From assembly GCA_945273835.1 (NCBI GenBank), contig CALYPL010000009.1, positions 1-64,000 on the forward strand: a DNA stretch of 64,000 nt, given 5' to 3'. The notes below the pieces were generated by a model. It ran no database searches. It had not been told where the DNA came from and saw only the letters and a list, made by a program, of their open reading frames with translations. Source of the DNA: an uncultured Dysgonomonas sp. GTDB lineage: Bacteria; Bacteroidota; Bacteroidia; Bacteroidales; Dysgonomonadaceae. Position 1 is the stretch's first letter. Each line of letters opens with the position of its first letter. A program made the position numbers and the translations under genes. Positions 43,897 to 60,607 of the stretch are shown here, in pieces.

Positions 43897-46677
43897 TTAA
43901 CTGTCAGTCCGTGAAATATATTCGGTAGGACTTTGGTTGTAGAATTCTTTAAAACACTTAGTAAAATAAGACGGCGATGAGAAGCCTGTCTCGTAGGCAA
44001 CTTCGGTTATGTTTTTGCTTTTGAGGCTCAACAAGTATTTGGCGTATTTAAGTCTTACGATCCGTACAAGCTCATTTGGAGAATAGTTAGTCAGCGACTT
44101 AATTTTTCTGTACAACTGCGATTTAGACAAACCCAAATGTCTGGCTATATCTTCCACATTGAGTTCAGGATTGGAAATATGCGCTTCCACATAGCTGTTG
44201 AAATTGTCGATAAACTGCTGTTCCACCTCAGCAAGAGTAGTTTTCTTGTTGTCGGTAATAAGATTATTGCTAAAAGTTTCTTTGATTTTCTGCCTGTTCT
44301 CAATTAGTTTAGCGATTCTGATTTTAAGCAATTCAGGATTAAACGGTTTTGGAATATAAGCGTCCGCTCCATATTTGAAACCCAAGGCTTTTTGTTCCTC
44401 CATAGAACAAGCTGTCAGTAGAATAATTGGAATATGGCTTGTGGTAATGTTTTCTTTTATTGTGGAACACACTTCGTAGCCGTCCTTGCGAGGCATCATC
44501 ACATCACTGATTATGACATCGGGAATATATTTCACGGCTTTTTCAATACCTTCCTGTCCGTCAGACGCCTGTATTAAAGAATAATCATCTTTAAGGATTT
44601 GAGCCATATAATCTTGCATATCAGCATTATCTTCGATAACAAGAAGTATCGGTTTATCCGATTCCAATGGTGTGAAGTCATCAACGATTTGCTGTTGATT
44701 GTCAATGCTTTCCATAGCAAGATGACTATGCGTGTACCCTTCCTGATATGAGCCATCCTCAGATTCATTAACATTGTCCTGATGATATGGCAATGTTATA
44801 ATGAAAGTCGTTCCTTTACCCTCCTCACTCGTGGCGGTTATGTTGCCATGGTGTATGTCTACTAAAGCATATGTAAAAGCGAGTCCTATTCCCGAACTGT
44901 TTTGGTGAGTATCGAGCTTGTAAAAACGTCCGAATACAGCCTCAGTCTTATCATGAGGTATGTATGAACCGCTGTTGAACACACTAAGTCGGGCAAATTC
45001 TTTTTTGTCAATCATCTCTTTGTTCAGGCTGACTTTGATGATCCCGCCATGGTTTACATGCTTCAGGGCATTAGATAGGAGGTTAAAATAGATTTTCTCC
45101 ACTTTATCCTTATCGAACCACATCGTAAAGTCATCGTCACTCGTCTCAAAAAGCAAGGCAATATGCTTACGCATTATGTATCCATAAAAAGGCGATGTCA
45201 GACTCTGAATGAAATCTTTAAAGTTATCTTGTACAAAATTCACTTTCATCTTGCCGTTCTCATAGCTTCTGAACTCGATGATCTGTGAGATAAGGCTAAG
45301 AAGTTTATCGCTGTTCTTCTTGACAAGAGTAAGCAACTGATGATGTCCTTTTTTCAGGCTGTTATCGGTCAGCAAAGTTTCAACAGGTCCGATAATAAGT
45401 GATAGGGGAGTTTTGAACTCGTGGGATATATTTGTAAAAAAGGCTAATTTAGATTGTGTGGCTTCTTCCAGCTGTTGAGACAAATTAATAAGTTGCTGTT
45501 TCTGCTGTTCCAGTTCCTGAGCCTGTCTGCTTATCTCATCGTTCTGTAATTTCAATTGCTTATTTGCCTTGTTTTTGCCCCGATAAGCGATATAAACAAG
45601 TACCAGTAGAGTGAAAATAAGAATAAGGGCAGATATTGAAATGTAAAACAGTGTACGTTGATTCGTGTATCGGGCAATGCTTTTGTTAAGCAGTTTATTT
45701 ATGTTATCTATTTTTGCCTGATGTTCGTCAATCTGTTCGTTTTGCAGTTGTAAAACACGTATGTTGCTTTTGTCCACTACGGTGCTGTACAGAATATTCT
45801 GCTTTTCGTAAGGTTCACCTTTAAGTATTTTATAGGCTACATCTATAACCTTATCGCCACCTGTGGGATAAATGAATGAGGCATCTATCAGGTTTTTACT
45901 GATGCTCTCAATCCCTCCGTCTTTAACAGGCAAAGCATCCACACCGATTATGTAGGGTCGTCTGCCACTGTATTTACTGTATGCTTCTTGTACGCCGAGT
46001 GCCATGTTGTCATTGAAGGCGAAAACCACATCTATTTTATCATGTCTGGCAATTTCATTCAGCATTTGTTGCTTAGCTTTGTCTTTCAGGAAATCGCCTG
46101 CAGGCTGTGCCACGATCTGAATATTGGGGAATTTGGCGATTGCTTCCGTAAATCCGTCATGCCGTTCAGTATCGGCGGATGATGTTTCCCAACCACGCAT
46201 TTCAACCACATTGCCTTTACCTTTCAATATGCCACCAACGTACAACCCTGCTTCATAACCCAACATACGGTTGTCTGCTCCCACATAAGCGGTGTAATCG
46301 TTAGTCTCTATATGTCTGTCAAGCAAAACTACAGGAATACCGGCATTGTAAGCTTTTTTTATTATGGGAGTTAGCGTCTCTTCTTCATTCGGAGAGACTA
46401 TCAGCAGGTCTACACCTTCGGCAATGAAGTTTTCAATATCTTTTATTTGCTGGTTTGAGTTATCATTGACTGACTTGATATGTATATGCAGATCGGAATG
46501 AAAGGAGGCTTCCCGCAGCATTTCGCGGTTGGCAGTCTGTCGCCAGCTGTCATCGCTACATTGAGATACACCGATGGTGTATTCCTTATCTTTATTAGTC
46601 CCGCATGAGGATAACAAAAGGCTCAGGAGTATCTGTATATGAAACAGGTATCTAATCAGGGATGGGATTTTGGGCAT
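43897..46677 (-). CDS. Hybrid two-component sensor-regulator with sugar-binding domain, fructan locus
   Basis: A 926-residue one-protein signalling system. From the ATG at 46677: a lipoprotein-type signal (LSSC, Cys25); a periplasmic sugar-binding domain of the RbsB/LacI class (about 32-310) with VVLLDRHIETNDYTAYVGADN; a membrane helix (about 342-362); a kinase with His419 in NISHEFKTP and GIGLAF in the ATPase part; a receiver with Asp725 in IISDVMMPRKDG; and an AraC-type HTH (about 820-925). In B. thetaiotaomicron the same architecture (BT1754) binds fructose and drives the fructan locus. A TTG start two codons upstream lies in the -7 element, so the ATG is used. Confidence 0.93.
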   Translation of the reverse strand: MPKIPSLIRYLFHIQILLSLLLSSCGTNKDKEYTIGVSQCSDDSWRQTANREMLREASFHSDLHIHIKSVNDNSNQQIKDIENFIAEGVDLLIVSPNEEETLTPIIKKAYNAGIPVVLLDRHIETNDYTAYVGADNRMLGYEAGLYVGGILKGKGNVVEMRGWETSSADTERHDGFTEAIAKFPNIQIVAQPAGDFLKDKAKQQMLNEIARHDKIDVVFAFNDNMALGVQEAYSKYSGRRPYIIGVDALPVKDGGIESISKNLIDASFIYPTGGDKVIDVAYKILKGEPYEKQNILYSTVVDKSNIRVLQLQNEQIDEHQAKIDNINKLLNKSIARYTNQRTLFYISISALILIFTLLVLVYIAYRGKNKANKQLKLQNDEISRQAQELEQQKQQLINLSQQLEEATQSKLAFFTNISHEFKTPLSLIIGPVETLLTDNSLKKGHHQLLTLVKKNSDKLLSLISQIIEFRSYENGKMKVNFVQDNFKDFIQSLTSPFYGYIMRKHIALLFETSDDDFTMWFDKDKVEKIYFNLLSNALKHVNHGGIIKVSLNKEMIDKKEFARLSVFNSGSYIPHDKTEAVFGRFYKLDTHQNSSGIGLAFTYALVDIHHGNITATSEEGKGTTFIITLPYHQDNVNESEDGSYQEGYTHSHLAMESIDNQQQIVDDFTPLESDKPILLVIEDNADMQDYMAQILKDDYSLIQASDGQEGIEKAVKYIPDVIISDVMMPRKDGYEVCSTIKENITTSHIPIILLTACSMEEQKALGFKYGADAYIPKPFNPELLKIRIAKLIENRQKIKETFSNNLITDNKKTTLAEVEQQFIDNFNSYVEAHISNPELNVEDIARHLGLSKSQLYRKIKSLTNYSPNELVRIVRLKYAKYLLSLKSKNITEVAYETGFSSPSYFTKCFKEFYNQSPTEYISRTDS

Positions 46678-46680
46678 GCA

Positions 46681-46688
46681 CAAATATA
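46681..46688 (-). promoter_or_regulatory. Putative -7 element of the hybrid regulator gene
   Basis: The minus strand reads TATATTTG with its last base only 4 nt before the ATG at 46677. The transcript may be leaderless. Confidence 0.45.
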
Positions 46689-46691
46689 CGA

Positions 46692-46729
46692 AAAAGCGTC
46701 ATAACTTATTCGACAGTTATGACGCTTAA
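46692..46729 (-). terminator. Intrinsic terminator after the fructokinase gene
   Basis: AAGCGTCATAAC pairs with GTTATGACGCTT around a 10-base loop, followed by TTTTCGTATATTTG on the minus strand. It ends the MFS-fructokinase unit and abuts the regulator's promoter. Confidence 0.85.
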
Positions 46730-46750: not shown

Positions 46751-47632
46751 TTACTTTCTAAATAATTCTAAATGAGAGTCCGGCAATTTAGGCATAGCTC
46801 CGTGTTGCTGGCAAACATATGCCGATACTTCGACTGCTAACCGATGGGCGTCTTCGATGCGTTCGCCGTGCATATAGGCTGCAACAAATGCGGCGGTGAA
46901 AGAATCTCCTGCTCCGACTGTGTCTGCCACATGCACTTTAGGAGTGGGCAGAGAAGAAGTTTGTCGTGGTGTGAAAACAAAACTTCCTTCAGTACCCTTA
47001 GTCAGGATGATTATATCTAATTTGTACTCATTAAGCAATCGTTTACAGATGTCTTGTTCTTCGCCCGACCAACCATACAGATCAGCGACCACTAATATTT
47101 CTTCATCATTTATTTTCAGCATATTCGCTAATTTGAGCGATTCGTGTATCAGTTCCTTGCTGTAAAAATTCTGACGAAGATTAATGTCGAATATTTTCAG
47201 ACTGTCTTTGGGCATCGCCTCAAGGTATTTTCTGATGGTGGTTCTTGAAACATCATTGCGCTGCGCCAACGAGCCGAAACAGGCTGTGCGCGTATTTTTA
47301 GCCAGATTCTCGGTACGTTCTGTGAAAGGTATATTATCCCAAGCCACGTTTTCTAAAATCTTGTAATGAGGGATACCATCTTTTTCAAGGGTGACTTGTA
47401 CCGTACCTGTTGGGTAAGCTGTTTTGTCAATCAGATAATTCAATCCTTTTTGTTCGAGATTCTCAAGTATCTCTTTGCCTAAAAGATCGTCTCCGATAGC
47501 ACTTACCGCATAACCGTTAAAACCGAATTGTGACACGTGGTAAGCGAAGTTAGCAGGTGCTCCGCCCAATACTTTTCTTTCGGGGAATATGTCCCATAGG
47601 ATTTCTCCCAGTCCAACTACAATGTCTGTCAT
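46751..47632 (-). CDS. Fructokinase (PfkB family)
   Basis: A 293-residue sugar kinase. The N-terminal GGAPANFAYHVSQFG substrate lid and the C-terminal DTVGAGDSFTAAF with the catalytic Asp define the PfkB family. LARNLRQNFYS-type text (FDINLRQNFYSKE) matches fructokinases. In this context it phosphorylates fructose released from fructan. It starts two bases after the MFS gene stop, so the two are coupled and share the operator upstream of the MFS gene. The B. thetaiotaomicron counterpart is BT1757. Confidence 0.92.
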   Translation of the reverse strand: MTDIVVGLGEILWDIFPERKVLGGAPANFAYHVSQFGFNGYAVSAIGDDLLGKEILENLEQKGLNYLIDKTAYPTGTVQVTLEKDGIPHYKILENVAWDNIPFTERTENLAKNTRTACFGSLAQRNDVSRTTIRKYLEAMPKDSLKIFDINLRQNFYSKELIHESLKLANMLKINDEEILVVADLYGWSGEEQDICKRLLNEYKLDIIILTKGTEGSFVFTPRQTSSLPTPKVHVADTVGAGDSFTAAFVAAYMHGERIEDAHRLAVEVSAYVCQQHGAMPKLPDSHLELFRK

Positions 47633-47634
47633 GT

Positions 47635-48789
47635 TTATTTATCTGTTTTAAGTTTTGATGTCAATATAAGTAGATACAAAATGCAAATTGATATTATGAT
47701 CAACGCTCCGGCCTGCGATTTGAGGGCATCAGACATAAGTCCCATTAATAGCGGGAATATCGCACCTCCGAATATACCCATCATCATCAGCCCCGATACC
47801 TCATTTCGTTTATCGGGCATATAAAGCATGGCTTGTGAGAGTATGATCGGGAAAATATTAGAATTACCGAATCCGATGAGTGCCATGCAAATATATATTG
47901 GCAATAATCCGTTAAATATAAACAATCCTACGACAGAAAGGATCATCAGAGCGACACTTATTCCGAAAAATTTCTTTGGTGAAAATCGGGTTAGTACAAA
48001 AGTTCCTGTAAGACACCCTGCTAAGCGGAAGAAGAAATATACGCTTGTTGCTATGACTGCGTCGTCTACACTCATGCCTAAACGCTCTGATAAAATTTTA
48101 GGAGCGGTAACGTTTATGCCTACATCTATACCTACGTGACACATTATACCGAGGAAGGATAGTAAAATGACTTTATTACCCAACAAGGCAAAGCATTGTC
48201 CGATGGTGGTTCTTTTATTCAGTTCTTGCGACTCTTTGATGGATGTAATTCCTAATAATATGATAGACACAACGGCGACAACCATAAATATCGGAAACAA
48301 TATTTTCCAGTTATTGAATTGCATTGCACCCCATCTCGCAATGAACGGTGCTGAAAAGGAGGCTATTGCTTTCACAAATTGACCTAATGTCAGCGAGCTT
48401 GCTAACTTATGGCCTGATACTACATCTGAAAGAAGCGGATTGAGTGATACTTGCATTAATGTATTACCAATGCCCAAGAGTGAGAAGGATATAAGCATGG
48501 TTGTGAATGAATACCCCAATACCGGTAACAAGAGCGACAGAACGGTGATTACTAAACTTAATAATACGGTTTTTCGGCGACCAATTTTGTTCATCAACAT
48601 TCCTGTTGGCACCGAAAATATAAGAAACCATAGAAATACCATTGATGGAAATAGGTTTGCCATGGTATCCGATAGTCCGAGATCTGCTTTGACGTAGTTT
48701 GTAGCTGTTCCTACAAGGTCTACAAATCCCATAACGAAAAATCCCAACATAATAGGGACAAGTAAACTGAGCGTTTTTTGTTGCTTCAT
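47635..48789 (-). CDS. MFS sugar importer, predicted fructose transporter
   Basis: A 384-residue inner-membrane protein with about 12 membrane helices and the FucP/GlcP-like architecture. MNKIGRRKTVLLSL is the cytoplasmic loop 2-3 motif of the major facilitator superfamily. Its position between fructokinase and GH32 matches BT1758. Fructose as substrate is inferred from context. The inverted-repeat site at 48885-48914 lies 96 bases upstream of the ATG. Confidence 0.9.
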   Translation of the reverse strand: MKQQKTLSLLVPIMLGFFVMGFVDLVGTATNYVKADLGLSDTMANLFPSMVFLWFLIFSVPTGMLMNKIGRRKTVLLSLVITVLSLLLPVLGYSFTTMLISFSLLGIGNTLMQVSLNPLLSDVVSGHKLASSLTLGQFVKAIASFSAPFIARWGAMQFNNWKILFPIFMVVAVVSIILLGITSIKESQELNKRTTIGQCFALLGNKVILLSFLGIMCHVGIDVGINVTAPKILSERLGMSVDDAVIATSVYFFFRLAGCLTGTFVLTRFSPKKFFGISVALMILSVVGLFIFNGLLPIYICMALIGFGNSNIFPIILSQAMLYMPDKRNEVSGLMMMGIFGGAIFPLLMGLMSDALKSQAGALIIISICILYLLILTSKLKTDK

Positions 48790-48834
48790 GATTATTTGAT
48801 TTTTGTTAGATCATATTGTTGTAATTCCACGTTG

Positions 48835-48842
48835 CAAAGCTC
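48835..48842 (-). promoter_or_regulatory. Weak -7-like element of the MFS-fructokinase operon
   Basis: The minus strand reads GAGCTTTG, keeping only the TTTG half of the consensus. It lies exactly 50 bp from the inverted-repeat site, as does the matching element at susC; a weak core suits an activator-dependent promoter. Confidence 0.45.
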
Positions 48843-48884
48843 CTGATAAATTTATTTTGGGAATATAATATTTGGTTCAAATGT

Positions 48885-48914
48885 ATGTAAAAATGATGCA
48901 CATATTTTTTACAT
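48885..48914. promoter_or_regulatory. Candidate operator of the fructan regulator, MFS copy
   Basis: The plus strand starts ATGTAAAAATGATGCA and ends TTTTTTACAT. The arms form an inverted repeat matching at 9 of 10 positions with a 10-bp spacer. The first 16 bases are identical to the site upstream of susC at 59173. No other copy with both arms was noticed in the window. Confidence 0.65.
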
Positions 48915-48949
48915 CCTGATTTATGGTGTTGAAATACAGTTAATAATAA

Positions 48950-48988
48950 AACAAGCCTTTTCCGGTCTCGGAAAAGACTCGTTTTGTT
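48950..48988 (-). terminator. Intrinsic terminator at the end of the susC operon
   Basis: CTTTTCCG pairs with CGGAAAAG around GAGAC, with flanking AAACGAG/CTTGTTT arms extending the stem. On the minus strand TATTATT follows. It lies about 20 bases past the stop of the GH32 gene at 49008. Confidence 0.8.
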
Positions 48989-49007: not shown

Positions 49008-51218
49008 CTATTGTTTTAATCTATATACTCTGAAGTTTTCAATATTAATTGTTCCGCCGTCAACATTAAAATCGATGCTATTATACGGTTCGGTAGGGAA
49101 CATGGTATTTGTCTGAACCAGTTCTCCATTATTTATAAATATTTCAGATGATGCTTTATCAATCAGCAAACGAATTTTATACGTTTCTTTTGGTACAAGA
49201 GGTGCATTAATTGAGTGTGAGGCGAAATTATTGGAAAAATCTACAAGACCGCTCTTGGAGCGATCTACGATAAATTGCCCTTTCTCTGTATCGAAAACAA
49301 AATTCAGAGATTCTCCTTTACGATTGTAGAGTTTGAAACCGAAATTTCGTGTCGAAGTGTTTCTGATAGTCATTTCAATTTCGTAAGCACCATTGTTATT
49401 ATCCAATAATTTATCGGTTGTATATTTGGTCTTTACCTCGAAGTTGTTGATTGAAACTGAATCTGTACGTAGTTTATCAATTTCTTTCACAGGATAATTA
49501 GCAACTATCAGATGCTTTCCATTATCGGCTAATTTTATATCACGAGGAACGGTCATTGCATTACGGAAGTTAAGTGTAGGTACCTGATTGGTATAACTCC
49601 AATTACTCATCCAACCAATGAATATGTGACGTTTATCGGGAGTATTTTCCCATGTCACACCCGCATAATTATCGCATCCGTAATCAATCCAAAGTGGGTA
49701 GGGTAGATCGTCAGGTATAAATTTCTTTCCGTCGAATGAGCCTATGAAATACTGGGTGGCGCTTCCTCCGTTAGGACCTCCGGGGTTAATGCTGACAAAC
49801 AATACCCATTTTGTTTTTCCCTGATAAGTCAGAGGAATTAAATCAGGACATTCCCATACTCCGCCATGATCGCCTATACCATCTCCGAACTCACTAAGCC
49901 GTGTCCATTCTTTCAGATTTTTCGAGCTGTAAAATGTTATTGTCTGGGTGGTTGCCAAAGACATTATCCATTGGTTGGAGGCATTGTGCCAAAATACCTT
50001 CGGATCACGGAAATCCGCATAATTTGCATCAGTCAGCACAGGATTATTTTCGTATTTGGTAAACGTGCGTCCATTATCAAGACTATAAGCTATACATTGT
50101 GACTGAATTTTTCCGGCTGAAGTATATATGGCTATCATCGCGTCTTTTCCGAATCCTGCTGTATTATTTTTATCTATAACGGCACTTCCCGAAAACATGG
50201 TTCCTAACGAGTCGGGTTCGAGAGCGAAAGGCAAATGTTCCCATTTAATAAAATCTTTAGTTACAGCATGCCCCCAGTGCATGTTGCCCCACATCGAACC
50301 ATAAGGATTGTGCTGAAAATAGAGATGATATTCTCCATTGTGATAAACCATGCCGTTGGGGTCGTTTGTCCAACCATAATAAGGCGAGAAATGGTAGTCG
50401 GGACGATATTTCTCATTATAGTCGAAATCGAAAGTATCGGACTGATTAATTAAAGAAAACCCTATATCAGTTTTTTTTACAAGGTCAAATAATAAGGTTA
50501 TTTGTTGTCCTTTGTAAGGTTCAACGTTGATAGGAACCCAGTAATCAGTTTTAGTCTGTGCTATGCGTATTTCGAGCAATGGACTTATATTCTTTCCATC
50601 TTGTTGTAAATGAACTTTGGTAACAGGGCCTTTATCTTCGATAGGTATAAGCAAATATTTTTTGTCTATTTTGTAAGACTGTTTATAGTTAACCATAATG
50701 TTGCTTTTGTCCGTATTACTCATAACTATCTGATCTACCAGAATGTGCCCCCATTCGCCGCGCTGATTATCAACTATTTTTATAACAGCCTTTTTGCCTT
50801 TATAGTTCTTCACATCCCACGATAATTGATGCAAGGCTTCGCTTTCAACAATCGGACGAGAAATGAACACGTTCTGTCCCTCAACTTCGAGCGACATATA
50901 AACATCAGAACTTATTCCCCCACCGATCAGGAAATTTATAAAATCACGTTCAATCGTGAATGGTGATGAGGTCAGCGTTCCCCGAGAATCGTCTCCTCCA
51001 TGAAAACTGTCGGCGAACGACTTACCCTCGTATCCGATGATTTCCTGCTGTCCCGGTTCGGGCTTATCATTGGGCATCGTTCCGAAAGCATCACCCTCAA
51101 CCGTCCATTTACTAAATGAGCCCGACTCAAAATCATCAATAATTTTGTCTGATGATGAACAGCTTACCAAAGTAATCATGGCAAAACTGATGAATGATAT
51201 ACAAAAATGCTTGTTCAT
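49008..51218 (-). CDS. GH32 exo-fructanase with N-terminal accessory domains
   Basis: A 736-residue lipoprotein (lipobox LVSC, Cys20). An N-terminal beta module (about 27-170, DDFESGSFSKWTVEGDAFG) and a DUF4980-like spacer (about 180-265) precede the GH32 five-blade propeller. Catalytic motifs are WTNDPNG (nucleophile Asp286), FRDPKVFW (Asp405) and WECPDL (acid/base Glu456). A C-terminal beta-sandwich completes the fold. The classical WTNDPNG start fits exo-acting levanases and inulinases that release fructose. It is the last gene of the susC operon, matching BT1759 in position. Confidence 0.93.
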   Translation of the reverse strand: MNKHFCISFISFAMITLVSCSSSDKIIDDFESGSFSKWTVEGDAFGTMPNDKPEPGQQEIIGYEGKSFADSFHGGDDSRGTLTSSPFTIERDFINFLIGGGISSDVYMSLEVEGQNVFISRPIVESEALHQLSWDVKNYKGKKAVIKIVDNQRGEWGHILVDQIVMSNTDKSNIMVNYKQSYKIDKKYLLIPIEDKGPVTKVHLQQDGKNISPLLEIRIAQTKTDYWVPINVEPYKGQQITLLFDLVKKTDIGFSLINQSDTFDFDYNEKYRPDYHFSPYYGWTNDPNGMVYHNGEYHLYFQHNPYGSMWGNMHWGHAVTKDFIKWEHLPFALEPDSLGTMFSGSAVIDKNNTAGFGKDAMIAIYTSAGKIQSQCIAYSLDNGRTFTKYENNPVLTDANYADFRDPKVFWHNASNQWIMSLATTQTITFYSSKNLKEWTRLSEFGDGIGDHGGVWECPDLIPLTYQGKTKWVLFVSINPGGPNGGSATQYFIGSFDGKKFIPDDLPYPLWIDYGCDNYAGVTWENTPDKRHIFIGWMSNWSYTNQVPTLNFRNAMTVPRDIKLADNGKHLIVANYPVKEIDKLRTDSVSINNFEVKTKYTTDKLLDNNNGAYEIEMTIRNTSTRNFGFKLYNRKGESLNFVFDTEKGQFIVDRSKSGLVDFSNNFASHSINAPLVPKETYKIRLLIDKASSEIFINNGELVQTNTMFPTEPYNSIDFNVDGGTINIENFRVYRLKQ

Positions 51219-51230
51219 AGGATAATAGTT

Positions 51231-52757
51231 TTACAGATATATATTTAAATTCGTAAAATCAACATCTCCGTTATTAGAAAAAATAGCCCAGGCATTCTGG
51301 TTCATCCGATAGATACGGTTTGTAAATGCAATCTGATTATTGATATAGATAACACAGACCGAATTTTCAATAATAAGTTTAACATCGTATTGAGCCGATA
51401 AGGGCAACGAAACTTTAGTTCGGTTAACGATATTGGTTTTATTCAGAATGCGGTTGAATTGAAGCTCTTGTTTAGCTAAATTGAAAGTGATCGTATACGT
51501 CTCTTCACGATTACCTCCCGAATTGAATTCAAAGCCAAAAGCTGCAGATGATCGGGGTTTGATACTTGCGCTTATTTTGCTGATTCCTTTTTCAAGGCGA
51601 TCAAAAATGACAATATCCTGTTTATCTCCAGTACCGGATAGTGTATAAGAGGCTGCTTGTTGCTTATCGGGACTAATTACTCTGGGCTGCTGAGGGTTTA
51701 TAAATCTGTCATCAATGCTTTGAGGGATTGAAACGTTTAATGTTCCATCCTGATTCTGAATTAATTTGTGTACAATAAGCGAACCTCCCCAATTAAAATT
51801 AGTGTCATCCTGATTCTGTTCACGAGTAGGGCACCATGCAAACACATAACGGTCAGTTCCGTCCGATGCAGTCTTACCACCATAGAATGCCTTACCGTCA
51901 AGGTTGCTCCGATTTGGAACTATCCATTCTGAAGAACCTGAATGGCGGTAACGGTAATGTACCATACGATCATTGTCGTTAATGTCGGAGTAAAGAAGAT
52001 ATTGATAATCGCCCATTGTAAATACATCGGGACATTCGAGAATGAACGTGTTAGTATCGTCATATATAGGCTCTTCAAGTTGCCAGTTATATAAATCGTT
52101 GGATGCAAAACGTGCGATGACGGCTCGCCACGAACCTTTATAATCGGCACGAGTGGCAATCAGCATCTTAAACTTACCATCTTCTTTTATGATAATCGGA
52201 TCGCGAAACTCGTTACGGTCATACCCACTCGGAGCCATCAGCACAAAGTCTGGTTCTTTAGTCCAATTTTTGAGATCGGAGGATGTAGCCATCAGAATGC
52301 GTTCACGAGGATTGTCGTAATCATTCCCTAAATCTCCATTATGTGCAGTATAAAATGCGTAATACCTGCCATTGTGTTCTATGACCGATCCTGTTCCTAA
52401 AGCCTTTTCGGGGCTATCTTTATATCCGCATGAAATCATTTCGCCCTCATCCACATAGTTCAAGAAATCAGATGTTGTAGCGCAAAACCAAGGATGGAAA
52501 GTATCAGGTGCGGGACGTGTATCCTGTAAATAGAAAATATGAAATTTTCCGTTTTTATAAAACGGCATAGGATCGCCCACCCATCCATGATTGGGTTTGT
52601 AGAACATGTTGTAAACCTGATATTGGTCTTGTACAAAATAAGGGGCAGACGTTTTGAGATTTACGCCGGGTTCGTTACACTCGTAGTTGAAATCGTTACT
52701 GCACGATAGGGTTATCGCGGCTAACAACAAACTGAATACAGCAAATTTTCCTTTCAT
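51231..52757 (-). CDS. GH32 lipoprotein, predicted surface endo-levanase
   Basis: A 508-residue lipoprotein (lipobox LSC, Cys19). The first GH32 motif is the variant HGWVGDPMPFYKNG with nucleophile Asp62. RDP lies at 185-187 and ECPDVF has the acid/base Glu241. The WVGDPMP variant and the position beside the SusD-side genes match BT1760, the surface endo-levanase of B. thetaiotaomicron. On that basis levan (beta-2,6 fructan) is the likely polymer. The C-terminal sandwich ends with YRMNQNAWAIFSNNGDVDFTNLNIYL. The gap to the next GH32 gene is 12 bases. Confidence 0.9.
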   Translation of the reverse strand: MKGKFAVFSLLLAAITLSCSNDFNYECNEPGVNLKTSAPYFVQDQYQVYNMFYKPNHGWVGDPMPFYKNGKFHIFYLQDTRPAPDTFHPWFCATTSDFLNYVDEGEMISCGYKDSPEKALGTGSVIEHNGRYYAFYTAHNGDLGNDYDNPRERILMATSSDLKNWTKEPDFVLMAPSGYDRNEFRDPIIIKEDGKFKMLIATRADYKGSWRAVIARFASNDLYNWQLEEPIYDDTNTFILECPDVFTMGDYQYLLYSDINDNDRMVHYRYRHSGSSEWIVPNRSNLDGKAFYGGKTASDGTDRYVFAWCPTREQNQDDTNFNWGGSLIVHKLIQNQDGTLNVSIPQSIDDRFINPQQPRVISPDKQQAASYTLSGTGDKQDIVIFDRLEKGISKISASIKPRSSAAFGFEFNSGGNREETYTITFNLAKQELQFNRILNKTNIVNRTKVSLPLSAQYDVKLIIENSVCVIYINNQIAFTNRIYRMNQNAWAIFSNNGDVDFTNLNIYL

Positions 52758-52809: not shown

Positions 52810-54204
52810 TTAATGCTTTGTCAGATAATAAAATATATTGGTGGTAAGTTGTTCCAGATTATCTTTTAGACTATTAGTGCCAACCACCGACCAGTCGTAA
52901 GCCTCGCTGCCAATGCAAACAACTCTTCCGTAATTACTATTTCGAGGCGGGTATTCAAACATCACCGAACGGCTTTTGGCATCGTCATCCCAATGGAAAC
53001 TGGCCAAACTTTTCGCTCCGCTGTCGTGACTCCAGCCTTCTATATTATTTTTATATTCCGACCAGTCTTCAGCGAAGTTCCAGATGGCATTGTGTCCTTT
53101 AACTTTTATTCCTCGGCTGAGCAGATATACCTTGTTTTTTACCCCTAAAGGTGTTTTCAGTCCTTTAAATATCGGGTGTGATTCCTGACCGGCAAAGCAT
53201 AATCCCCAATTTTCGCTTAGCTCAACACCATTGGCAGCATTGCTTTCACCCCATTCATTATTCACGGCTTTTCCGTCGTTAGGGATACCCAAAATCGCAG
53301 CGTATTTTACAGCCCATGATGAGAAAAAGAAAGCCCCGCCTTGTTTGTAATAATTTTTCAGTTTTGAGACAACGCCTCCATCCATAGCCGCATCGGGCAA
53401 TGTGCGGATATTTCCGTCAGTATGCCACCACATGGCAGCGAAATGAGCCGGATCAATACTTCCGTTTTTAATTTTCTCAAACGATACGTATTCGACATTC
53501 GGGAAATTATCGGAAAACCATTCATAAGCAGCCTTTTCGTCAGGGTTTTCGATGCTCGAAGCATCATTATATACTCCCAGATAAGCGAATGATGGCGATT
53601 CAATAGCTGTGACTTTATAAATAAATTTTTGTCCGTGATAATTTACCGTATATTCAACAGGATTGGTAAAGTCAACAGGCTCTCCCGGTTCGGGAGTAAC
53701 GCTCGCACCTTTAGTATATGTGAAAGATGGAATAAGTTTTTTTGCATCAGCTGATTGAGGATAAAAGAATGTGACTGTCAACGCATCATTATCAATAATT
53801 CCTTTGAATTTACCGAACCCGAATGTCTCAAATTTTCCGGATATGTAATCTGTTGATACATAATAGTCAGTATACAGATTACCATTTGTAACTCTGTATA
53901 CGGTTTCTTTGGACAGGTCAACTGTTGTTCCGCTTTCGGGCATGATCTTTGCTCCTTCCGAAACATTTATTTCAGGTGTCAGCTTTGTATTGTCTGTGCC
54001 TTTGGGAAGCATGATGATGATGCGTTCTTTACCATCCTCATGTTGAAAAATAACATCTCCCTGATTCGCGATTTTGAAAGAGGTAATTTTAGTTTCACCC
54101 GATATATCTAAATTTTTGTGATCATCATCATTACATCTGATAAAGCTAAAACTTATGATGATAGCAAAAACGAGTGTCGTGCAGAAATATATAGATTGTT
54201 TCAT
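52810..54204 (-). CDS. Surface glycan-binding lipoprotein (DUF4960-type, BT1761-like)
   Basis: A 464-residue lipoprotein (Cys24 in FIRC, then Asn-Asp-Asp-Asp). The N-terminal half holds two Ig-like DUF5018-type modules, each ending in a near-repeat: ESGTTVDLSKETVYRVT and EPGEPVDFTNPVEYTV. The C-terminal half (about 225-464) matches the DUF4960 domain of fructan loci and has a glutamine-amidotransferase-like feel (GGAFFFSSWAVKYAAILGI, GRVVCIGSEAYDWSVVG). No catalytic triad is evident. Its position next to SusD fits a surface fructan-binding role. Confidence 0.82.
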   Translation of the reverse strand: MKQSIYFCTTLVFAIIISFSFIRCNDDDHKNLDISGETKITSFKIANQGDVIFQHEDGKERIIIMLPKGTDNTKLTPEINVSEGAKIMPESGTTVDLSKETVYRVTNGNLYTDYYVSTDYISGKFETFGFGKFKGIIDNDALTVTFFYPQSADAKKLIPSFTYTKGASVTPEPGEPVDFTNPVEYTVNYHGQKFIYKVTAIESPSFAYLGVYNDASSIENPDEKAAYEWFSDNFPNVEYVSFEKIKNGSIDPAHFAAMWWHTDGNIRTLPDAAMDGGVVSKLKNYYKQGGAFFFSSWAVKYAAILGIPNDGKAVNNEWGESNAANGVELSENWGLCFAGQESHPIFKGLKTPLGVKNKVYLLSRGIKVKGHNAIWNFAEDWSEYKNNIEGWSHDSGAKSLASFHWDDDAKSRSVMFEYPPRNSNYGRVVCIGSEAYDWSVVGTNSLKDNLEQLTTNIFYYLTKH

Positions 54205-54233: not shown

Positions 54234-55904
54234 TTACCATCCCGGATTTTGTTTGTATCTGTTACCGCTAAAGCTGATCTGATTGCTTGGTATCGGGATG
54301 TATTCGTTCTTGTTTTTGGTAAAATTGGCGTTTTTATAGTAATCCCTTCTTGGCGATTCTTCCTTATAGAATGTGTTCAGAACGCTATCGGCTTCGCCCC
54401 AACGTACCAGATCAAAAAAACGAGAACCTTCCATCGCCATTTCAAGCCGTCTTTCCCACCGCAGAGCCTGACGGGCATATGACTGAGTCCATCCCTGAGA
54501 GCTATATGTGGATATGTTTATTCGTTGCGCGTAGGTAATTAAGCCTGTGCTTTTACGCGCACGTTCACGTATTTCATTGATAATCGGTAATGCCTGATCT
54601 TGCATGCCCAATTCGATTAATGCTTCTGCCCTGAACAGCATAACATCGGCATAACGCAGCACAATACGATTCTTGGTATTTGCATAGAATGGCGACATGG
54701 TGACAAAACAATCGCACGATGGGGTTACGTTTTCTTTCAATGATGCAAAATAGCCGTAAACATTCGGATTTCGGTTCCATGAATTTTTATAGATAAGTGT
54801 TTCATCGTATTTGAATGGAAATCCATCCATGGCTACCGTATGGAACAATCGTGGATCGGCGTTGTCAGTCATTGGGTTATAATTGTTTTGATTATAAGAT
54901 TTAAACATCGGCAATCCGTTGTTGGTTTTGAATGCGTTCACTAAATTTTGACTTGGTTTGTGAAAATCGCAACAGCCGAGTCCCTGAGGTAAAGAAAGAA
55001 CATCGCTGAAATTGAGACGTCCGAATTTTGTACCGTCGTCTTTCGAGAATTGTATTGAGAAGATTGCTTCTTTACCGTTCTCGTAAGGACCTGGTAAAAA
55101 ATTGAATGCAAAATCGGGTTCTAATCCGTATGATGAGTTCATTGCGACTTGTGTATAAACAAGCACTTTTTTCAGATCAGCATCATCTATTCCTGTCACA
55201 TTATTTCGTTCGTCTTGTCGGTATGCTTTATATAAGTATGTTTTTGCCAGATATGCAGCTGCGGCGATTTTGTTGGCACGACCGACCGATGGTTGTTTTT
55301 CGGGCAAAAGTTCATAGGCTTTTGTGAAATCGTTTACTATCCATGCCCATTGTTCATCGTTGGGTAATGTGTTAGGTACACTGTCGTAATCATCGACCGG
55401 CAAATCTTCATTCACAAACGGTATGTGACCAAATACTGTTTTCATTATGAAATAGAAATGTCCTCTCAGAAAGTAGACTTCACCCATTCGTACATCTTTG
55501 TCTGCATAGTCGTCTGTGCTGAGTTTTTTGAGAACGCTAAGGGCTGTATTGCAGCGTGATATTGCTTTATAGCATTGAAACCAGAAACGGTCTGCCTCTC
55601 CGAAATTGGGTTGTGTATCCGTATTTATTTCGTAATAATGGAAAGCTGAAATATCGTTTATATCGCTTCCTCCTTTGTAGGCATCGTCTGAACGTACATT
55701 GCCGTATGCCCAAAGGCTGAATGGTGTGTCGTAATGGTCGTTGCCGAGTGCGGAATATGCGGCGGTTACAAGAGAGTTTGCTTGATCGGCTTTCTTTATT
55801 TCTTTCTCGTCCTTAAATCCCTGAGGGTCTTCATCCAGAAAATTACAGCTTACTGCTAATAGCAGAATTGATAATATAATGGCTGTATATGTTAGTTTTT
55901 TCAT
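54234..55904 (-). CDS. SusD/RagB family fructan-binding lipoprotein
   Basis: A 556-residue lipoprotein (lipobox AVSC, Cys20). It has the SusD N-terminal pattern LDEDPQGFKDE and the TPR-like helices AKTYLYKAYR and VMLFRAEALIELGMQDQALPIINEIRERA. The C-terminal RWERRLEMAMEGSRFFDLVRWGEAD and YIPIPSNQIS motifs are diagnostic. It forms a lid on the SusC barrel and captures fructan oligosaccharides at the cell surface. The gap to susC is 20 bases. Confidence 0.96.
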   Translation of the reverse strand: MKKLTYTAIILSILLLAVSCNFLDEDPQGFKDEKEIKKADQANSLVTAAYSALGNDHYDTPFSLWAYGNVRSDDAYKGGSDINDISAFHYYEINTDTQPNFGEADRFWFQCYKAISRCNTALSVLKKLSTDDYADKDVRMGEVYFLRGHFYFIMKTVFGHIPFVNEDLPVDDYDSVPNTLPNDEQWAWIVNDFTKAYELLPEKQPSVGRANKIAAAAYLAKTYLYKAYRQDERNNVTGIDDADLKKVLVYTQVAMNSSYGLEPDFAFNFLPGPYENGKEAIFSIQFSKDDGTKFGRLNFSDVLSLPQGLGCCDFHKPSQNLVNAFKTNNGLPMFKSYNQNNYNPMTDNADPRLFHTVAMDGFPFKYDETLIYKNSWNRNPNVYGYFASLKENVTPSCDCFVTMSPFYANTKNRIVLRYADVMLFRAEALIELGMQDQALPIINEIRERARKSTGLITYAQRINISTYSSQGWTQSYARQALRWERRLEMAMEGSRFFDLVRWGEADSVLNTFYKEESPRRDYYKNANFTKNKNEYIPIPSNQISFSGNRYKQNPGW

Positions 55905-55924: not shown

Positions 55925-58900
55925 TTAGAATGAGGCATTAACACCAAGCGTGAAAGTTAGCGGTATGGGATAACCCCAAGCCGGATTTTCAGGGTCTACT
56001 CCTGTAAAACTTTTACTGTGGATTGTAAATACATTTTGTACACTCAGATAGGTACGTAAACTACCGATTTTGATGTTATCAAGTACTGATTTGGGTATGT
56101 TGTATCCAACTTGTAGGTTTCTCATTTTCAGATAAGAACCATTTTCTACAAAATAAGAAGATCGTCTTGCTTCGTTATTATTATCGGCAGCCGATAGCAT
56201 CGGTATTTTAGAATTCGGATTGGTTATAGGATGAAAAGCATCCAATAAGCGTCTTCCTTTATTTGAACGGGTATCGGACACACTCCAGAAATCGGAACGG
56301 GTTTTCAGGTCGCTGTAAATGTCTATGCCGTTTATACCCTGAAAATACATGGTCAGATCAAAATTTTTATATCCTAATGAGATATTCAATCCATACTCAA
56401 AATCAGGGGTTGGATCGCCTATCCATGTGCGGTCGTTATCGTCGATTTTACCATCATTATTCAAGTCCCGATAACGTATGCGACCGATTGCTTTTCCCGA
56501 TTGATAAGCATGTTTGTCAACTTCGTCCTGCGTGCGGAAAATACCGTCGGCTATCCATCCGTAAAAGTTCTCGCTTCCCACCGGTCTGCCGATAGCATTG
56601 TCCCATTTACCGTTTCCACCGTAACCGATCAATACTGATGGAGGCAGATGAGTGATTTTATTTTTATTGGTAGAGAAATTTCCCGCCAGATCGTAGGTCA
56701 ACCCGAAAGATGTTTGTCCACGATACCCCAGTGTAAACTCAAATCCTTTATTTTCCATTTTGGCTCCATTAAAGTATTTATTGGCACCCTCGCCTTTTAT
56801 ACCCGAATAAGGTGGTTGATATAGAATATCTTTGGTTTTCTTGATATAATATTCCACTGATCCGTACAGCGACTGATCAAAAAATCCGAAATCAAGCCCA
56901 ATATTAGTTTGAGTTGTAGTTTCCCATTTCAGATCGGGGTTAGCCAATTGCACACGTTTAAATCCTGCGGGTAATGTGCCTGAGCCTTTTCCGTCAATGT
57001 CATAGGCAGTACCCCAAATCGAATTCCATGTAGGATCACCTTTGCCATAATCGGTTTTGTAAATACTGTAAATAGCGTCATTCCCCATTGTTTGATTACC
57101 TGTCTGACCCCATCCGAATCGCAATTTGAGGTCTGACAGATAATCGGTTGTTTTCTGCATAAACGTTTCTTGCGAAACTCTCCAACCCAAATTGAAGGCT
57201 GGAAACATACCCCATCGGTTATTTTTGCCGAAACGTGATGAGCCGTCACGGCGTAAGGTTACCGAAGCCAGATATTTTTCATCATAAGCATACCCTATTT
57301 TACCGAAATAAGACATCAGCGAATACACAGCGTTATAACCTGAACCGATACTGCTACCAGTTGCTTCGTCGGGCCACATATAATCAGGGTCTTCGCTTGC
57401 GAATCCTTCGGCACTCGCGGCGAATTTCTGATATGTTTCTCTGAACATTTCCATGCCGAGAAGAGTCTCGAAACGGTTTTTATCGATTTGGAAATCATAT
57501 GTAGCCGTATTAGTCCAGGTCCATCTTGTCCAATGTTCCTGTTGCATAATGGATTCGTTTCGGTCACTTTCAATATTTCCGTTAATGAAACTATGTACAA
57601 GGGTGCGTCTGTACATATTTGAATAGTCTAACCCGAAATTGGAGCGTATGTTAAGCCCTTTCATCGGGTTGATGTTTGCGAAGGCATTGCCGAATATTCG
57701 CCAGTAACGGTATCGGTTATCTTTGTTGTCATGTAATAATCGTACAGGATTATTTCTGTCCGGTAATATACCTGTTGGTCCGCCCCAACCTTTGCCATCC
57801 GTTGTGTGTACCGGAATGAATGGAACGGCTATCAGTGCTGCTTCAGTTATCTGATAAGGGGCTTCTACTTCAGTCGTGTGGTTAATGGACAGATTTTCAC
57901 CCATGGTCAACACGTTGTTAAATAGTTTGTAATCGCCATTGATGCGGGCTGAGATACGGGAAAAATCAGTTTCTTTCACTAATCCGTTATTATCGTAATA
58001 ACCAAGCGAGAAAAAATAATTTCCTTTCTCCGTACCGTTTGTTACTGACAGGTTATAGGATTGGGCAAAGCCAATTCTGGTTATTTCATCTACCCAGTCA
58101 GTATTTGATGTGCGCATCTTTTGCCCTCGTTTATTGTACATAAATTCAGGTATATATACATCTTCAAAAATACGTGTGCCATCGGGTCTTGTCGATTCTT
58201 TGTAGATAAAACCATAACCGTTGTTATTCGGGTTTTGTCCCGAATTTACAGTTGCCTGCCAATAAGCCTGAGCATATTCTCGTGAGTTCAGAACTTTGAG
58301 TTTATTGGCATAATCGGCAACCGAAAGATAAGCATCGAAGTTTACTTTCAGAACGCCTTTTTTACCTTTCTTGGTCGTAACTATTATTACACCATTTGCT
58401 GCACGTGATCCATAAATACTTGCTGCTGAGGCATCACGAAGCACTTGTATGCTTTCGATGTCGTTTGAGTTCAGCTCGTGCATGCCGGCGGTGGTAGGCA
58501 CACCGTCTATTATATAAAGCGGATCATTGTTGTTTAGTGTGCCTATACCACGAATACGCACGGTGGCTTTGCCGGCTGGATTTCCATCGTTTGTTACTTG
58601 CATCCCTGCAACACGTCCTTGTAAGGCTTTCATAGCATTATTGTCGGGTGTTGACATCATTTCTTTTACATCTATTACCGATACCGCCCCTGTAAGATCG
58701 GCTTTACGTTCGGTACGATATCCTACGGCTACAACTTCTTTGAGCATCAAAGCATCTTCTGTCATTGCGACATTTATTGTTTTTCTGCCCTCTATTTTTA
58801 TCTCCTGAGATTTGAAGCCAATATAGGAGAATTCAAGTATGGCATCGGGTGATGCTTTTATACTGTATTCTCCGTCAATACCGGTCATAGTCCCCTCAGC

Positions 58901-59047
58901 AGAGTTTTTTATTTTCACGGTAACACCGGGCAAGGGTTCATTGTCTGTTGCCGATGTAATCACGCCAACTACCGTTGTTGTTTGCGCCCAAATGTTTGCA
59001 TTGTACAGAATGGGCAGTAGAAAGAATAAAATACATCTGATTTTCAT
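55925..59047 (-). CDS. SusC-like TonB-dependent fructan transporter
   Basis: A 1040-residue outer-membrane protein. A signal peptide (about 1-21) is followed by a carboxypeptidase-like domain (VVGVITSATDNEPLPGVTVKIKN). The EVVAVGYRTERKADLTGAVSVID TonB-box region and the plug domain (ALQGRVAGMQVTNDG, DPLYIIDGVP, IQVLRDASAASIYGSRAANGVIIVTTKKG) come next. A 22-strand-type barrel ends in a C-terminal Phe (TFTLGVNASF). It imports fructan oligosaccharides with the SusD partner. It heads the main operon and lies downstream of the operator at 59173-59203. Confidence 0.97.
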   Translation of the reverse strand: MKIRCILFFLLPILYNANIWAQTTTVVGVITSATDNEPLPGVTVKIKNSAEGTMTGIDGEYSIKASPDAILEFSYIGFKSQEIKIEGRKTINVAMTEDALMLKEVVAVGYRTERKADLTGAVSVIDVKEMMSTPDNNAMKALQGRVAGMQVTNDGNPAGKATVRIRGIGTLNNNDPLYIIDGVPTTAGMHELNSNDIESIQVLRDASAASIYGSRAANGVIIVTTKKGKKGVLKVNFDAYLSVADYANKLKVLNSREYAQAYWQATVNSGQNPNNNGYGFIYKESTRPDGTRIFEDVYIPEFMYNKRGQKMRTSNTDWVDEITRIGFAQSYNLSVTNGTEKGNYFFSLGYYDNNGLVKETDFSRISARINGDYKLFNNVLTMGENLSINHTTEVEAPYQITEAALIAVPFIPVHTTDGKGWGGPTGILPDRNNPVRLLHDNKDNRYRYWRIFGNAFANINPMKGLNIRSNFGLDYSNMYRRTLVHSFINGNIESDRNESIMQQEHWTRWTWTNTATYDFQIDKNRFETLLGMEMFRETYQKFAASAEGFASEDPDYMWPDEATGSSIGSGYNAVYSLMSYFGKIGYAYDEKYLASVTLRRDGSSRFGKNNRWGMFPAFNLGWRVSQETFMQKTTDYLSDLKLRFGWGQTGNQTMGNDAIYSIYKTDYGKGDPTWNSIWGTAYDIDGKGSGTLPAGFKRVQLANPDLKWETTTQTNIGLDFGFFDQSLYGSVEYYIKKTKDILYQPPYSGIKGEGANKYFNGAKMENKGFEFTLGYRGQTSFGLTYDLAGNFSTNKNKITHLPPSVLIGYGGNGKWDNAIGRPVGSENFYGWIADGIFRTQDEVDKHAYQSGKAIGRIRYRDLNNDGKIDDNDRTWIGDPTPDFEYGLNISLGYKNFDLTMYFQGINGIDIYSDLKTRSDFWSVSDTRSNKGRRLLDAFHPITNPNSKIPMLSAADNNNEARRSSYFVENGSYLKMRNLQVGYNIPKSVLDNIKIGSLRTYLSVQNVFTIHSKSFTGVDPENPAWGYPIPLTFTLGVNASF

Positions 59048-59122
59048 TTTTCGGTTCAGGTATTAAATTAAAGTATGGTTTAAGTTATATTTCTGATTAA
59101 GATTTGTCAGGTCAAGACAGTA

Positions 59123-59130
59123 CAAATAGA
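59123..59130 (-). promoter_or_regulatory. Weak -7-like element of the susC operon
   Basis: The minus strand reads TCTATTTG, one base off TAnnTTTG. Directly upstream at 59130-59145 lies a small inverted repeat (ACCGTT and AACGGT). The distance to the operator equals that at the MFS promoter. Confidence 0.45.
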
Positions 59131-59172
59131 CCGTTAAAAAACGGTTAATAATGTAAAAAATAGTTCATTAAC

Positions 59173-59203
59173 ATGTAAAAATGATGCATGTTGATTTTTA
59201 CAT
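59173..59203. promoter_or_regulatory. Candidate operator of the fructan regulator, susC copy
   Basis: ATGTAAAAAT and ATTTTTACAT form a perfect 10-bp inverted repeat with an 11-bp spacer. A further half site ATGTAAAAAA starts at 59151, 22 bases before the left arm, giving a two-helical-turn direct repeat as expected for an AraC-type binder. It matches the site at 48885. Confidence 0.7.
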
Positions 59204-59283: not shown

Positions 59284-59291
59284 TAACTTTG
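59284..59291 (+). promoter_or_regulatory. Putative -7 element of the T9SS-sorted PKD protein gene
   Basis: The plus strand reads TAACTTTG. A GTG at 59291 could start the frame but overlaps this element, so the ATG at 59315 is used. Confidence 0.5.
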
Positions 59292-59314
59292 TGATTAATG
59301 ATATCTACAGATTT

Positions 59315-60607
59315 ATGAAAACCGGATTTTTCTATATTCTTATTATGCTTATCACAGCGCATTATGGTCTTTACGCTCAAAAGATTAAAGCATCGGGAGG
59401 AATGGGTGATCCTTATGTTTATAAAGAAAATTTGGTCGGTACGGGCATAGAGGCTGTATATTTATTCAACGGTCTTTCAGGAGCATCAATTTCATTTACA
59501 TCCTCTTCGCCATCGATACGTATATATCGTTATAAAAATTCTATTGCCGATAAACAATTGATTCCGCAATCGGATATTAGCGAGACGCAGGAAGTGCAGG
59601 GTACTGTTTATACTGTTTCAAACCTTATGGATGGTTATGGTTATTATATCGATACCAATCCAATACGAGTTCAATGGGTTATTGATTACAGCTTACACCA
59701 GACTAAACTTCATTCCATTGTACCTGTTGAGGATGACGATAAATGCGATCTTATCAAACTGCTTATCGATAAGCAAGAGGATTTATTCTATTATACCACA
59801 AGCGGTATTAAACGTACAGTAACCTGTCGCTACAATGTATCGTATAATACGATGGAATGGAAAGATGACCGATTTAATACAAAGCTATTTACTTCTGATG
59901 AAAGCCAGATAGCCTCTGAATTCATTGTTTCAGCACCTTTGGAAGATACTCATTTTTCACTTTCAGGCGATCAGTTTGCTCGTCATTTCAGAATAGATAA
60001 AGTCCTTCAAACTGGCTTATATCATGCCGTGGCAACGGAGGCGCATATTAATTACGAACAGGATAGTGATAATAAGGTAGATAATAGTCCGGGCGGTTCA
60101 GCTCCATTGACTATTCACTTTCAAGGGTATGCCAACGAGCCGGTCAGCCGTTTTTACACTTGGAATATTTATAATGTTAAAGACTTGAATAATCCGATAA
60201 TACGCTTTACTGATAAGGATATATCTTATACTTTCGATAAATCGGGTAATTATAAAGTGGTGCTTGAAGTTGCCAATCGGGAATCTTCATGCTCAGATAC
60301 AACAAGTATATCTTTTAAGATAACCGAGTCGTTCCTTGATGTGCCTAATTTTTTTGTTACGGGAAGTGTATCGGGTGTTAACAATGAGTTTAAAGTAGCT
60401 TATAAATCACTTGTACGTTTCAAATGCACTATTTTTAATCGTTGGGGTGTGAAACTTTATGAATGGAAAGACCCATCAGTAGGTTGGGATGGGCGTCATA
60501 ACGGTCGTTATGTAAGTCCCGGCGCATACTATTATGTGATTGATGCGGAAGGTGCGGACGGAGTGAAGTATAAAAGAGGTGGCGATATAAATATACTTCA
60601 CAAATAA
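59315..60607 (+). CDS. Secreted PKD protein with type B T9SS sorting domain
   Basis: A 430-residue protein with a signal peptide (MKTGFFYILIMLITAHYGLYA). An N-terminal region of unknown fold is followed by a PKD-like domain (about 255-345, PLTIHFQGYANEPVSRFYTWNIY). The C-terminal gliding-motility-associated domain (about 345-430) has FNRWGVKLYEWKDPSVGWDGRHNG and VSPGAYYYVIDAEG. That CHU_C-type tail directs export by the type IX secretion system. No T9SS machinery gene lies in the window, and gldH is not proof of it. The protein's function is unknown. Confidence 0.87.
   Translation: MKTGFFYILIMLITAHYGLYAQKIKASGGMGDPYVYKENLVGTGIEAVYLFNGLSGASISFTSSSPSIRIYRYKNSIADKQLIPQSDISETQEVQGTVYTVSNLMDGYGYYIDTNPIRVQWVIDYSLHQTKLHSIVPVEDDDKCDLIKLLIDKQEDLFYYTTSGIKRTVTCRYNVSYNTMEWKDDRFNTKLFTSDESQIASEFIVSAPLEDTHFSLSGDQFARHFRIDKVLQTGLYHAVATEAHINYEQDSDNKVDNSPGGSAPLTIHFQGYANEPVSRFYTWNIYNVKDLNNPIIRFTDKDISYTFDKSGNYKVVLEVANRESSCSDTTSISFKITESFLDVPNFFVTGSVSGVNNEFKVAYKSLVRFKCTIFNRWGVKLYEWKDPSVGWDGRHNGRYVSPGAYYYVIDAEGADGVKYKRGGDINILHK

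Follow-up and report, generated by a model that had tools for sequence, protein, structure and literature searches.

Predicted direct-repeat operators of a fructose-type hybrid two-component regulator at two promoters of a Dysgonomonas fructan locus

Two sites in the fructan locus of an uncultured Dysgonomonas sp., here designated A and B, are predicted to be class II-type activator operators of the fructose-type hybrid two-component regulator (HTCS) encoded nearby at 43897-46683, a reading to which we assign a probability of about 0.8. All coordinates refer to the stretch of 64,000 nucleotides that was analysed (contig CALYPL010000009.1, positions 1 to 64,000), termed the window. Each operator would consist of two AraC-type half-sites arranged on the sense strand as a direct repeat, about 21 bp or two helical turns apart. 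Half-site 2 would overlie the -33 region, and the distance from the start of half-site 1 to the -7 box TTTG would be 61 nt. The initial annotation had regarded the two sites as an inverted-repeat operator. Its proposal of an operator is supported, with sites in both fructan-operon promoters that are unique in the genome and with the same element in orthologous loci at the same distance from TTTG, whereas the inverted repeat is not supported as the operative element.

For gut Bacteroidota, HTCS regulators are among the main means of sensing glycans from diet and host, and to our knowledge few of their operators have been mapped. A predicted operator that is exact to the letter, unique in its genome and fixed in its geometry relative to the -7 box offers a ready test of promoter activation by a membrane-bound regulator, and our data suggest that it could aid the annotation of fructan loci. 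Our confidence in the activator-operator reading is slightly lowered by weak matches away from fructan genes and by a hairpin that is flagged on one strand, both described below.

Organization of the fructan locus and its two promoters

On the minus strand, the operon behind site B is followed by the operon behind site A and then by the HTCS gene. The first operon encodes a SusC homologue (55925-59047), a SusD homologue (54234-55904), a DUF4960 protein of the fructan locus (52810-54204) and two GH32 hydrolases, one with a BT1760-like C-terminal domain (51231-52757) and one with DUF4980 (49008-51218). The second comprises, according to domain searches, an MFS transporter (47635-48789) and a PfkB-family sugar kinase, probably a fructokinase (46751-47632). 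The HTCS is composed of a Peripla_BP_4 sensor, which we take to be the COG1879 sensor, followed by HisKA, HATPase_c, Response_reg and AraC-type HTH (HTH_18) domains, and its likely start is an ATG located 6 nt inside the listed TTG.

The transporter gene is separated from the GH32 gene by 218 bp, which contain a strong hairpin (48948-48985, minus strand; -22.7 kcal/mol, z -7.51), probably a terminator, and then operator A; the consensus scan flags a terminator at this hairpin on the plus strand only. In 14 of 28 stretches around HTCS homologues that were taken from related genomes, the GH32 and transporter genes are neighbours, like those of the window. The gap measures 1-32 bp in 13 of the 14 relatives with adjacent genes, which leaves no room for a promoter, and 890 bp in the remaining one. 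The parting of the window's transporter-kinase genes from the upstream operon by the long gap and the hairpin would thus go along with an operator copy of their own. Elsewhere, an operator match (E 2.5e-9) is located about 47 bp upstream of a transporter start near a contig end (L217, G021:C55), and a weaker operator precedes the transporter in a Prevotella locus (L162, score 14.6).

The gap between the fructokinase and HTCS genes harbors a predicted intrinsic terminator with a 13-bp stem (46694-46727, minus strand; -19.7 kcal/mol, z -6.68). It is followed by TATATTTG, which fits TAnnTTTG and has an ATG a few bases further, and the HTCS gene may be expressed independently, from an mRNA almost devoid of a leader. 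Judged from the terminator and TATATTTG, the regulator is probably expressed separately, as has been reported for BT1754 (PMC3404733).

Read from the letters of the window, site A is ATGTAAAAATGATGCACATATTTTTTACAT (48885-48914) and site B is ATGTAAAAATGATGCATGTTGATTTTTACAT (59173-59203). The sites are identical over their first 16 bases and both finish in TTTTTACAT, the C of a CAAA (48835 for A, 59123 for B) lies 50 bp from the first base of each, and TGAAC and TTANATT occur in both at matching positions of the minus (sense) strand, all as originally described. The common bases between site and CAAA are the second half of the direct repeat, and the inverted repeats are unequal, with 30 bp in A and 31 bp in B; neither point is contained in the initial annotation. 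Located with PWM and profile models free of window letters, the ungapped 68-bp block of half-site 1, half-site 2 and TTTG extends on the minus strand over 48832-48899 at promoter A, 42 bp from the transporter start, and over 59120-59187 at promoter B, before the SusC-SusD-DUF4960-GH32-GH32 operon and 72 bp from the SusC start. Half-site 1 reads GCATCATTTTTACAT at both (48885-48899 and 59173-59187, minus strand). Half-site 2, in the 21-bp register and over the -33 region, reads TGAACCAAATATTATAT in A (48863-48879, minus strand) and TGAACTATTTTTTACAT in B (59151-59167, minus strand), the copy in A being the poorer one. The TTTG of the presumed -7 box occupies 48835-48838 and 59123-59126 on the minus strand, respectively. 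In promoter B, a small inverted repeat, ACCGTTTTTTAACGGT (59130-59145, minus strand), is located between half-site 2 and the -7 box.

In the own genome (2,191,999 bases in 50 contigs) the common 16-mer has two exact matches, A and B, and three further places are found with two mismatches. The paired arms ATGTAAAA-N10-15-TTTTACAT occur at A and B only, with no match of the reversed-pattern control, and the same is true, at up to three mismatches and with zero control matches, of the 38-base sense-strand pattern GCATCATTTTTACAT-N5-TGAACNANNTNTTANATT, which was composed from the two sites themselves. The presence of two matching sites is not due to chance. Both are thus placed where the initial annotation had put them, in the promoters of the two fructan operons (before the susCD/GH32 and the transporter-kinase genes) and unique in the genome.

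Conservation of the direct repeat and the -7 box in related loci

Gibbs sampling without a prior motif was applied to 37 upstream regions, 35 from relatives and two from the window. The best of six starts was a 68-bp ungapped block composed of the direct repeat and TTTG, with a consensus over 12 sites of GCAaCATTTtT, then TGAaC.atTTTTTATAg, then TTTG; the inverted repeat was not returned. Judged by eye, about 16 of the 37 rows do not fit the block, and these are mostly distant or unrelated promoters. In a run with 18 promoters, which were selected after the first run, the best of 12 starts reached 824.5, compared to 413-436 in shuffled sets (eight sets, best of three starts each); the lowest two real starts (467.8 and 453.4) were near the shuffled level, and only the best starts gave the direct-repeat alignment. 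Similarity to half-site 1 is maximal at offset +21 (4.2; background -16.6, sd 2.6). Related fructan loci conserve, on the sense strand, a pair of half-sites offset by about 21 bp and a TTTG 61 nt from the first base. This TTTG is present at index 61 in 31 of the 34 collected sites, a count that is inflated as independent evidence, since some of the sites were chosen by a PWM rewarding TTTG; the three sites lacking it (L085, L086 and L088) are among the distant ones. Over 14 sites, the half-sites hold 0.89 and 0.80 bits per column, compared to 0.24 for the 40 bp that include the outer inverted arm.

Models free of window letters recovered both sites. With a PWM from 12 relatives the window sites scored 33.6 and 28.4 and the next best position in 64 kb -0.7, the 68-bp matrix ranking B best and A second. 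A repeat-only PWM (37 bp, 13 relatives) gave 29.7 and 24.8, with the next at 16.2 and the TTTG at the same place, and a profile from 18 relatives' sites found, in the own genome, A with E=2.0e-9, B with E=9.6e-8 and the next match with 0.029. A 15-mer scan with one mismatch was discarded as too loose, as it matched in 62 of the 101 genomes (the window's own counted).

In the 101 genomes, the profile yielded 50 matches at E<=0.01. The 16 matches at E<=1e-5, spread over 13 genomes, without exception precede a SusC, GH32 or transporter gene of these fructan loci, at a distance of 32-224 bp. As most of their loci had trained the profile, specificity was tested here more than recovery; the strong matches outside the training set are the window's two and those in G054, G003, G021:C55 and G024:C14, of which G024:C14 and G054 each resemble a training site. 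Weaker cases are a match 36 bp before GH32 in G005 (E 2.3e-4) and one about 125 bp before SusC in G018 (E 0.0026), and with strict filters no match at E<=0.01 was obtained in G048 and G100, whose orthologues show 54% and 47% identity. Downstream genes were inspected for only some matches between 1e-5 and 0.01; in the stretches checked, no fructan-locus gene is located behind the matches in G043 (E 4.3e-4), the second match in G003 (0.0049) and the match in the own genome (0.029). All 13 genomes with strong matches encode an HTCS homologue that aligns over its full length including the sensor, with an identity of at least 55% in 12 of them (100% for the window's own) and 43% in G003. The best candidate for the regulator is the fructose-type HTCS encoded nearby, as initially proposed.

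Of the 80 named loci, the closest of which are mostly from Dysgonomonas, seven repeat contigs of the first set and 73 were scored. The PWM score was above the shuffled maximum (7.3, the top score among 120 Markov-resampled copies of six loci) in 17 and at or below it in 56, and in 15 of the 17 the match is located at most 400 bp upstream, on the right strand, of a gene resembling one of this locus. Above 7.3 are Capnocytophaga cynodegmi (46.5), Duncaniella muris (26.6) and several MAGs; not above it are the other two Capnocytophaga loci, both Phocaeicola loci and both B. fragilis loci (L136 and L138, with top scores of 1.8 and 3.3), the frame behind the best match in L136 having no Pfam family. 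Among the non-training named loci with an HTCS homologue (at least 36% identity over at least 80% of the query, any sensor type), 10 of 29 exceed the shuffled maximum and 19 do not. Some of the non-scoring loci are cut by contig ends and others may be drifted variants. Four loci of Paludibacter and related organisms (L110, L114, L122 and L123) carry an apparently drifted form of the operator, roughly GTATCAAAA..TACA.GA.GATG.AACAA.TTT.ACAG, and only L110 and L123 exceed the shuffled maximum. For Dysgonomonas and one Capnocytophaga locus the predicted operator geometry is clear; elsewhere it is weaker or unrecognised by this matrix. Its occurrence in both genera, with one of three loci in Capnocytophaga, together with weaker matches in other Bacteroidota, suggests an old fructose regulon.

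Promoter boxes, outer inverted arm and alternative readings

In the available text of PMC7366714, the Bacteroidota housekeeping consensus is given as TAnnTTTG for the -7 box and TTTG for the -33 box. At both sites of the window TTTG is in register and a single letter of TA is retained in each -7 box (GAGCTTTG in A, TCTATTTG in B). By reading, TTTG at about -33 was found at neither promoter, and half-site 2 sits at the position of the -33 box; activator-dependent promoters with a polymerase contact at half-site 2 would be the natural reading. A plain sigma-70-like promoter (TTTACA-18-TATATT/TACATT) in place of an operator can be matched to the consensus at 48891-48862 (10 of 12 letters) and at 59179-59150 (9 of 12), but we consider it hardly credible, as such matches occur in the region at chance level (41 found, 42.6 in shuffles), promoters of this phylum reportedly lack the classical -10 and -35 boxes (PMC7366714, available text) and conservation extends to the TTTG 61 nt away.

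The inner arm of the inverted repeat is identical with half-site 1, and the outer arm (ATGTAAAAA on the minus strand; 48906-48914 at A and 59195-59203 at B) is an addition to the direct repeat. It is exact at both sites, which is probably not pure chance, and most relatives are devoid of it. An operator formed by the inverted repeat itself, with a symmetric dimer on the ATGTAAAAA...TTTTTACAT arms, could appeal to these exact arms and to their pairing nowhere else in the genome. It is nevertheless very unlikely: the arm spacing differs by 1 bp between A and B, conservation among the relatives is close to background upstream of half-site 1, the unsupervised search omits the outer arm, and an exact inverted copy of the 9-bp end of the half-site, anywhere within the 40 bp upstream, is present in only 2 of 32 relatives' sites (L108 and L080), with two more (L075 and L146) at one mismatch. 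Of the features of a palindromic operator, the mirror arms are found at both sites, but not a constant spacing or conservation in orthologues. The inverted repeat was consequently rejected as the conserved core, the relatives keeping the direct repeat (21-bp offset) and TTTG and mostly not the outer arm.

Three half-sites are also conceivable, the direct repeat serving for activation and the outer arm for repression or looping, or being the relic of a back-to-back divergent operator. The outer arm is present in both window sites, and a second copy facing outward is found in several divergent loci; in four of them (L075, L078, L219 and L077, i.e. G001:C26, G016:C43, G021:C3 and G024:C14), the divergent GH32/SusC promoters have a pair of outward direct-repeat operators, with match starts 91 bp apart in all four. 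Such pairs resemble inverted repeats and may be the origin of the window's arms. The outer arms are weak, however, by the full 15-bp half-site matrix (P 0.035 and 0.107), and inspection of the letters showed no TTTG in register with the outward arm of B, so that this reading is unlikely. Divergent from operator B, and starting about 90-100 bp away, is a gene (59291-60607, plus strand) whose product has a C-terminal CHU_C domain (type IX secretion) and weakly matches PKD; an outward operator for it was considered, and by reading none in register was found. A more specific proposal is that the unphosphorylated HTCS dimer occupies the outer arm as a third half-site in an inverted, non-activating pair and shifts to the direct repeat upon phosphorylation. 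We hold it to be quite improbable; if true, it would be an AraC-like switch, which the accessible parts of the cited papers do not mention for HTCS regulators.

Binding of another factor, namely the Crp-like global regulator BT4338 or another HTCS, was weighed as well. Several ChIP-seq binding sites of BT4338 are reported for the fructan locus of B. thetaiotaomicron (PMC11501099, as far as available), and the BT4338 palindrome resembles the window sites in its inverted-repeat form and in its occurrence at sugar promoters. The BT4338 consensus, the TATGTTnTAnAACATA palindrome, is absent from the window sites, however: TATGTTNTANAACATA with up to three mismatches matches in neither promoter, so that this candidate was dropped, and is found across the window at chance level (14 matches, 10.5 expected). 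The 16 strong operator matches at fructan loci of genomes with a full-length HTCS homologue likewise speak against another factor, whose involvement appears distinctly improbable.

Proposed mechanism and comparison with known systems

In the preferred activator-operator reading, the GH32 enzymes would release fructose in the periplasm and thereby initiate a phosphorelay inside the HTCS, whose DNA-binding domains would then fill the tandem half-sites and recruit the housekeeping polymerase of Bacteroidota to a promoter that lacks a -33 box and has only part of the -7 box. Operator B would drive expression of the SusC-SusD-DUF4960-GH32-GH32 operon and operator A that of the transporter-kinase operon, and the HTCS gene, behind a terminator and with its own TATATTTG, would probably not be induced. 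The direct basis of this scheme consists of sequence, uniqueness, conservation, geometry, gene context and predicted hairpins, from which we infer binding, ligand, transcription starts, activation and termination.

The closest known system is the predicted HTCS_Fru regulon of Bacteroides, whose regulator in B. thetaiotaomicron is the fructose HTCS BT1754. Both regulators have the same architecture (sensor, kinase, receiver, AraC HTH), Peripla_BP_4 being presumed equivalent to COG1879, both regulons include fructan genes, an inner-membrane transporter and a kinase, and both have predicted direct-repeat operators with about 21 bp between the half-sites, a likeness drawn by geometry and not by motif letters. 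The window's organism is a Dysgonomonas relative, whereas HTCS_Fru belongs to Bacteroides. In the available text of PMC3878776 (2013), motifs are predicted for 16 HTCSs, all of them direct repeats of two sites with an average of 21 bp; HTCS_Fru is among the named regulons, which were derived by comparative genomics, the COG1879 sensor is given as peculiar to BT1754, and the authors state that the predictions should be tested. The remark in the initial annotation that sites of hybrid regulators are rarely defined has to be corrected in this respect. In ChIP-seq of BT1754 in B. thetaiotaomicron, the strongest enrichment was reported for the 3' region of its own gene (PMC3404733, available text), which does not support a promoter site, and a mapped BT1754 operator was not among the literature matches listed, with subscription papers and supplements outside the scope.

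Electrophoretic mobility shift assays have been reported for BT4124 and BT4663 on the bt4114 and bt4662 promoters (PMC11253607, available text). These HTCSs respond to other glycans, and their operators resemble those of the window in that an AraC-type HTCS output domain binds, or here would bind, a susC-type promoter with a predicted site, a likeness by type and not by site letters. In two B. thetaiotaomicron strains, susC promoters were reported to be 91% identical despite divergent susCD genes (PMC5967196, available text). The direct-repeat geometry of HTCS operators, including the predicted HTCS_Fru regulon, has thus been published before (PMC3878776), where, in the part available, a fixed distance to the -7 box is not mentioned. 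What the sequence comparison appears to add is the rigid spacing to the -7 box, the presence of the predicted operator outside Bacteroides, and, differently from HTCS_Fru, a separate operator for the transporter-kinase operon.
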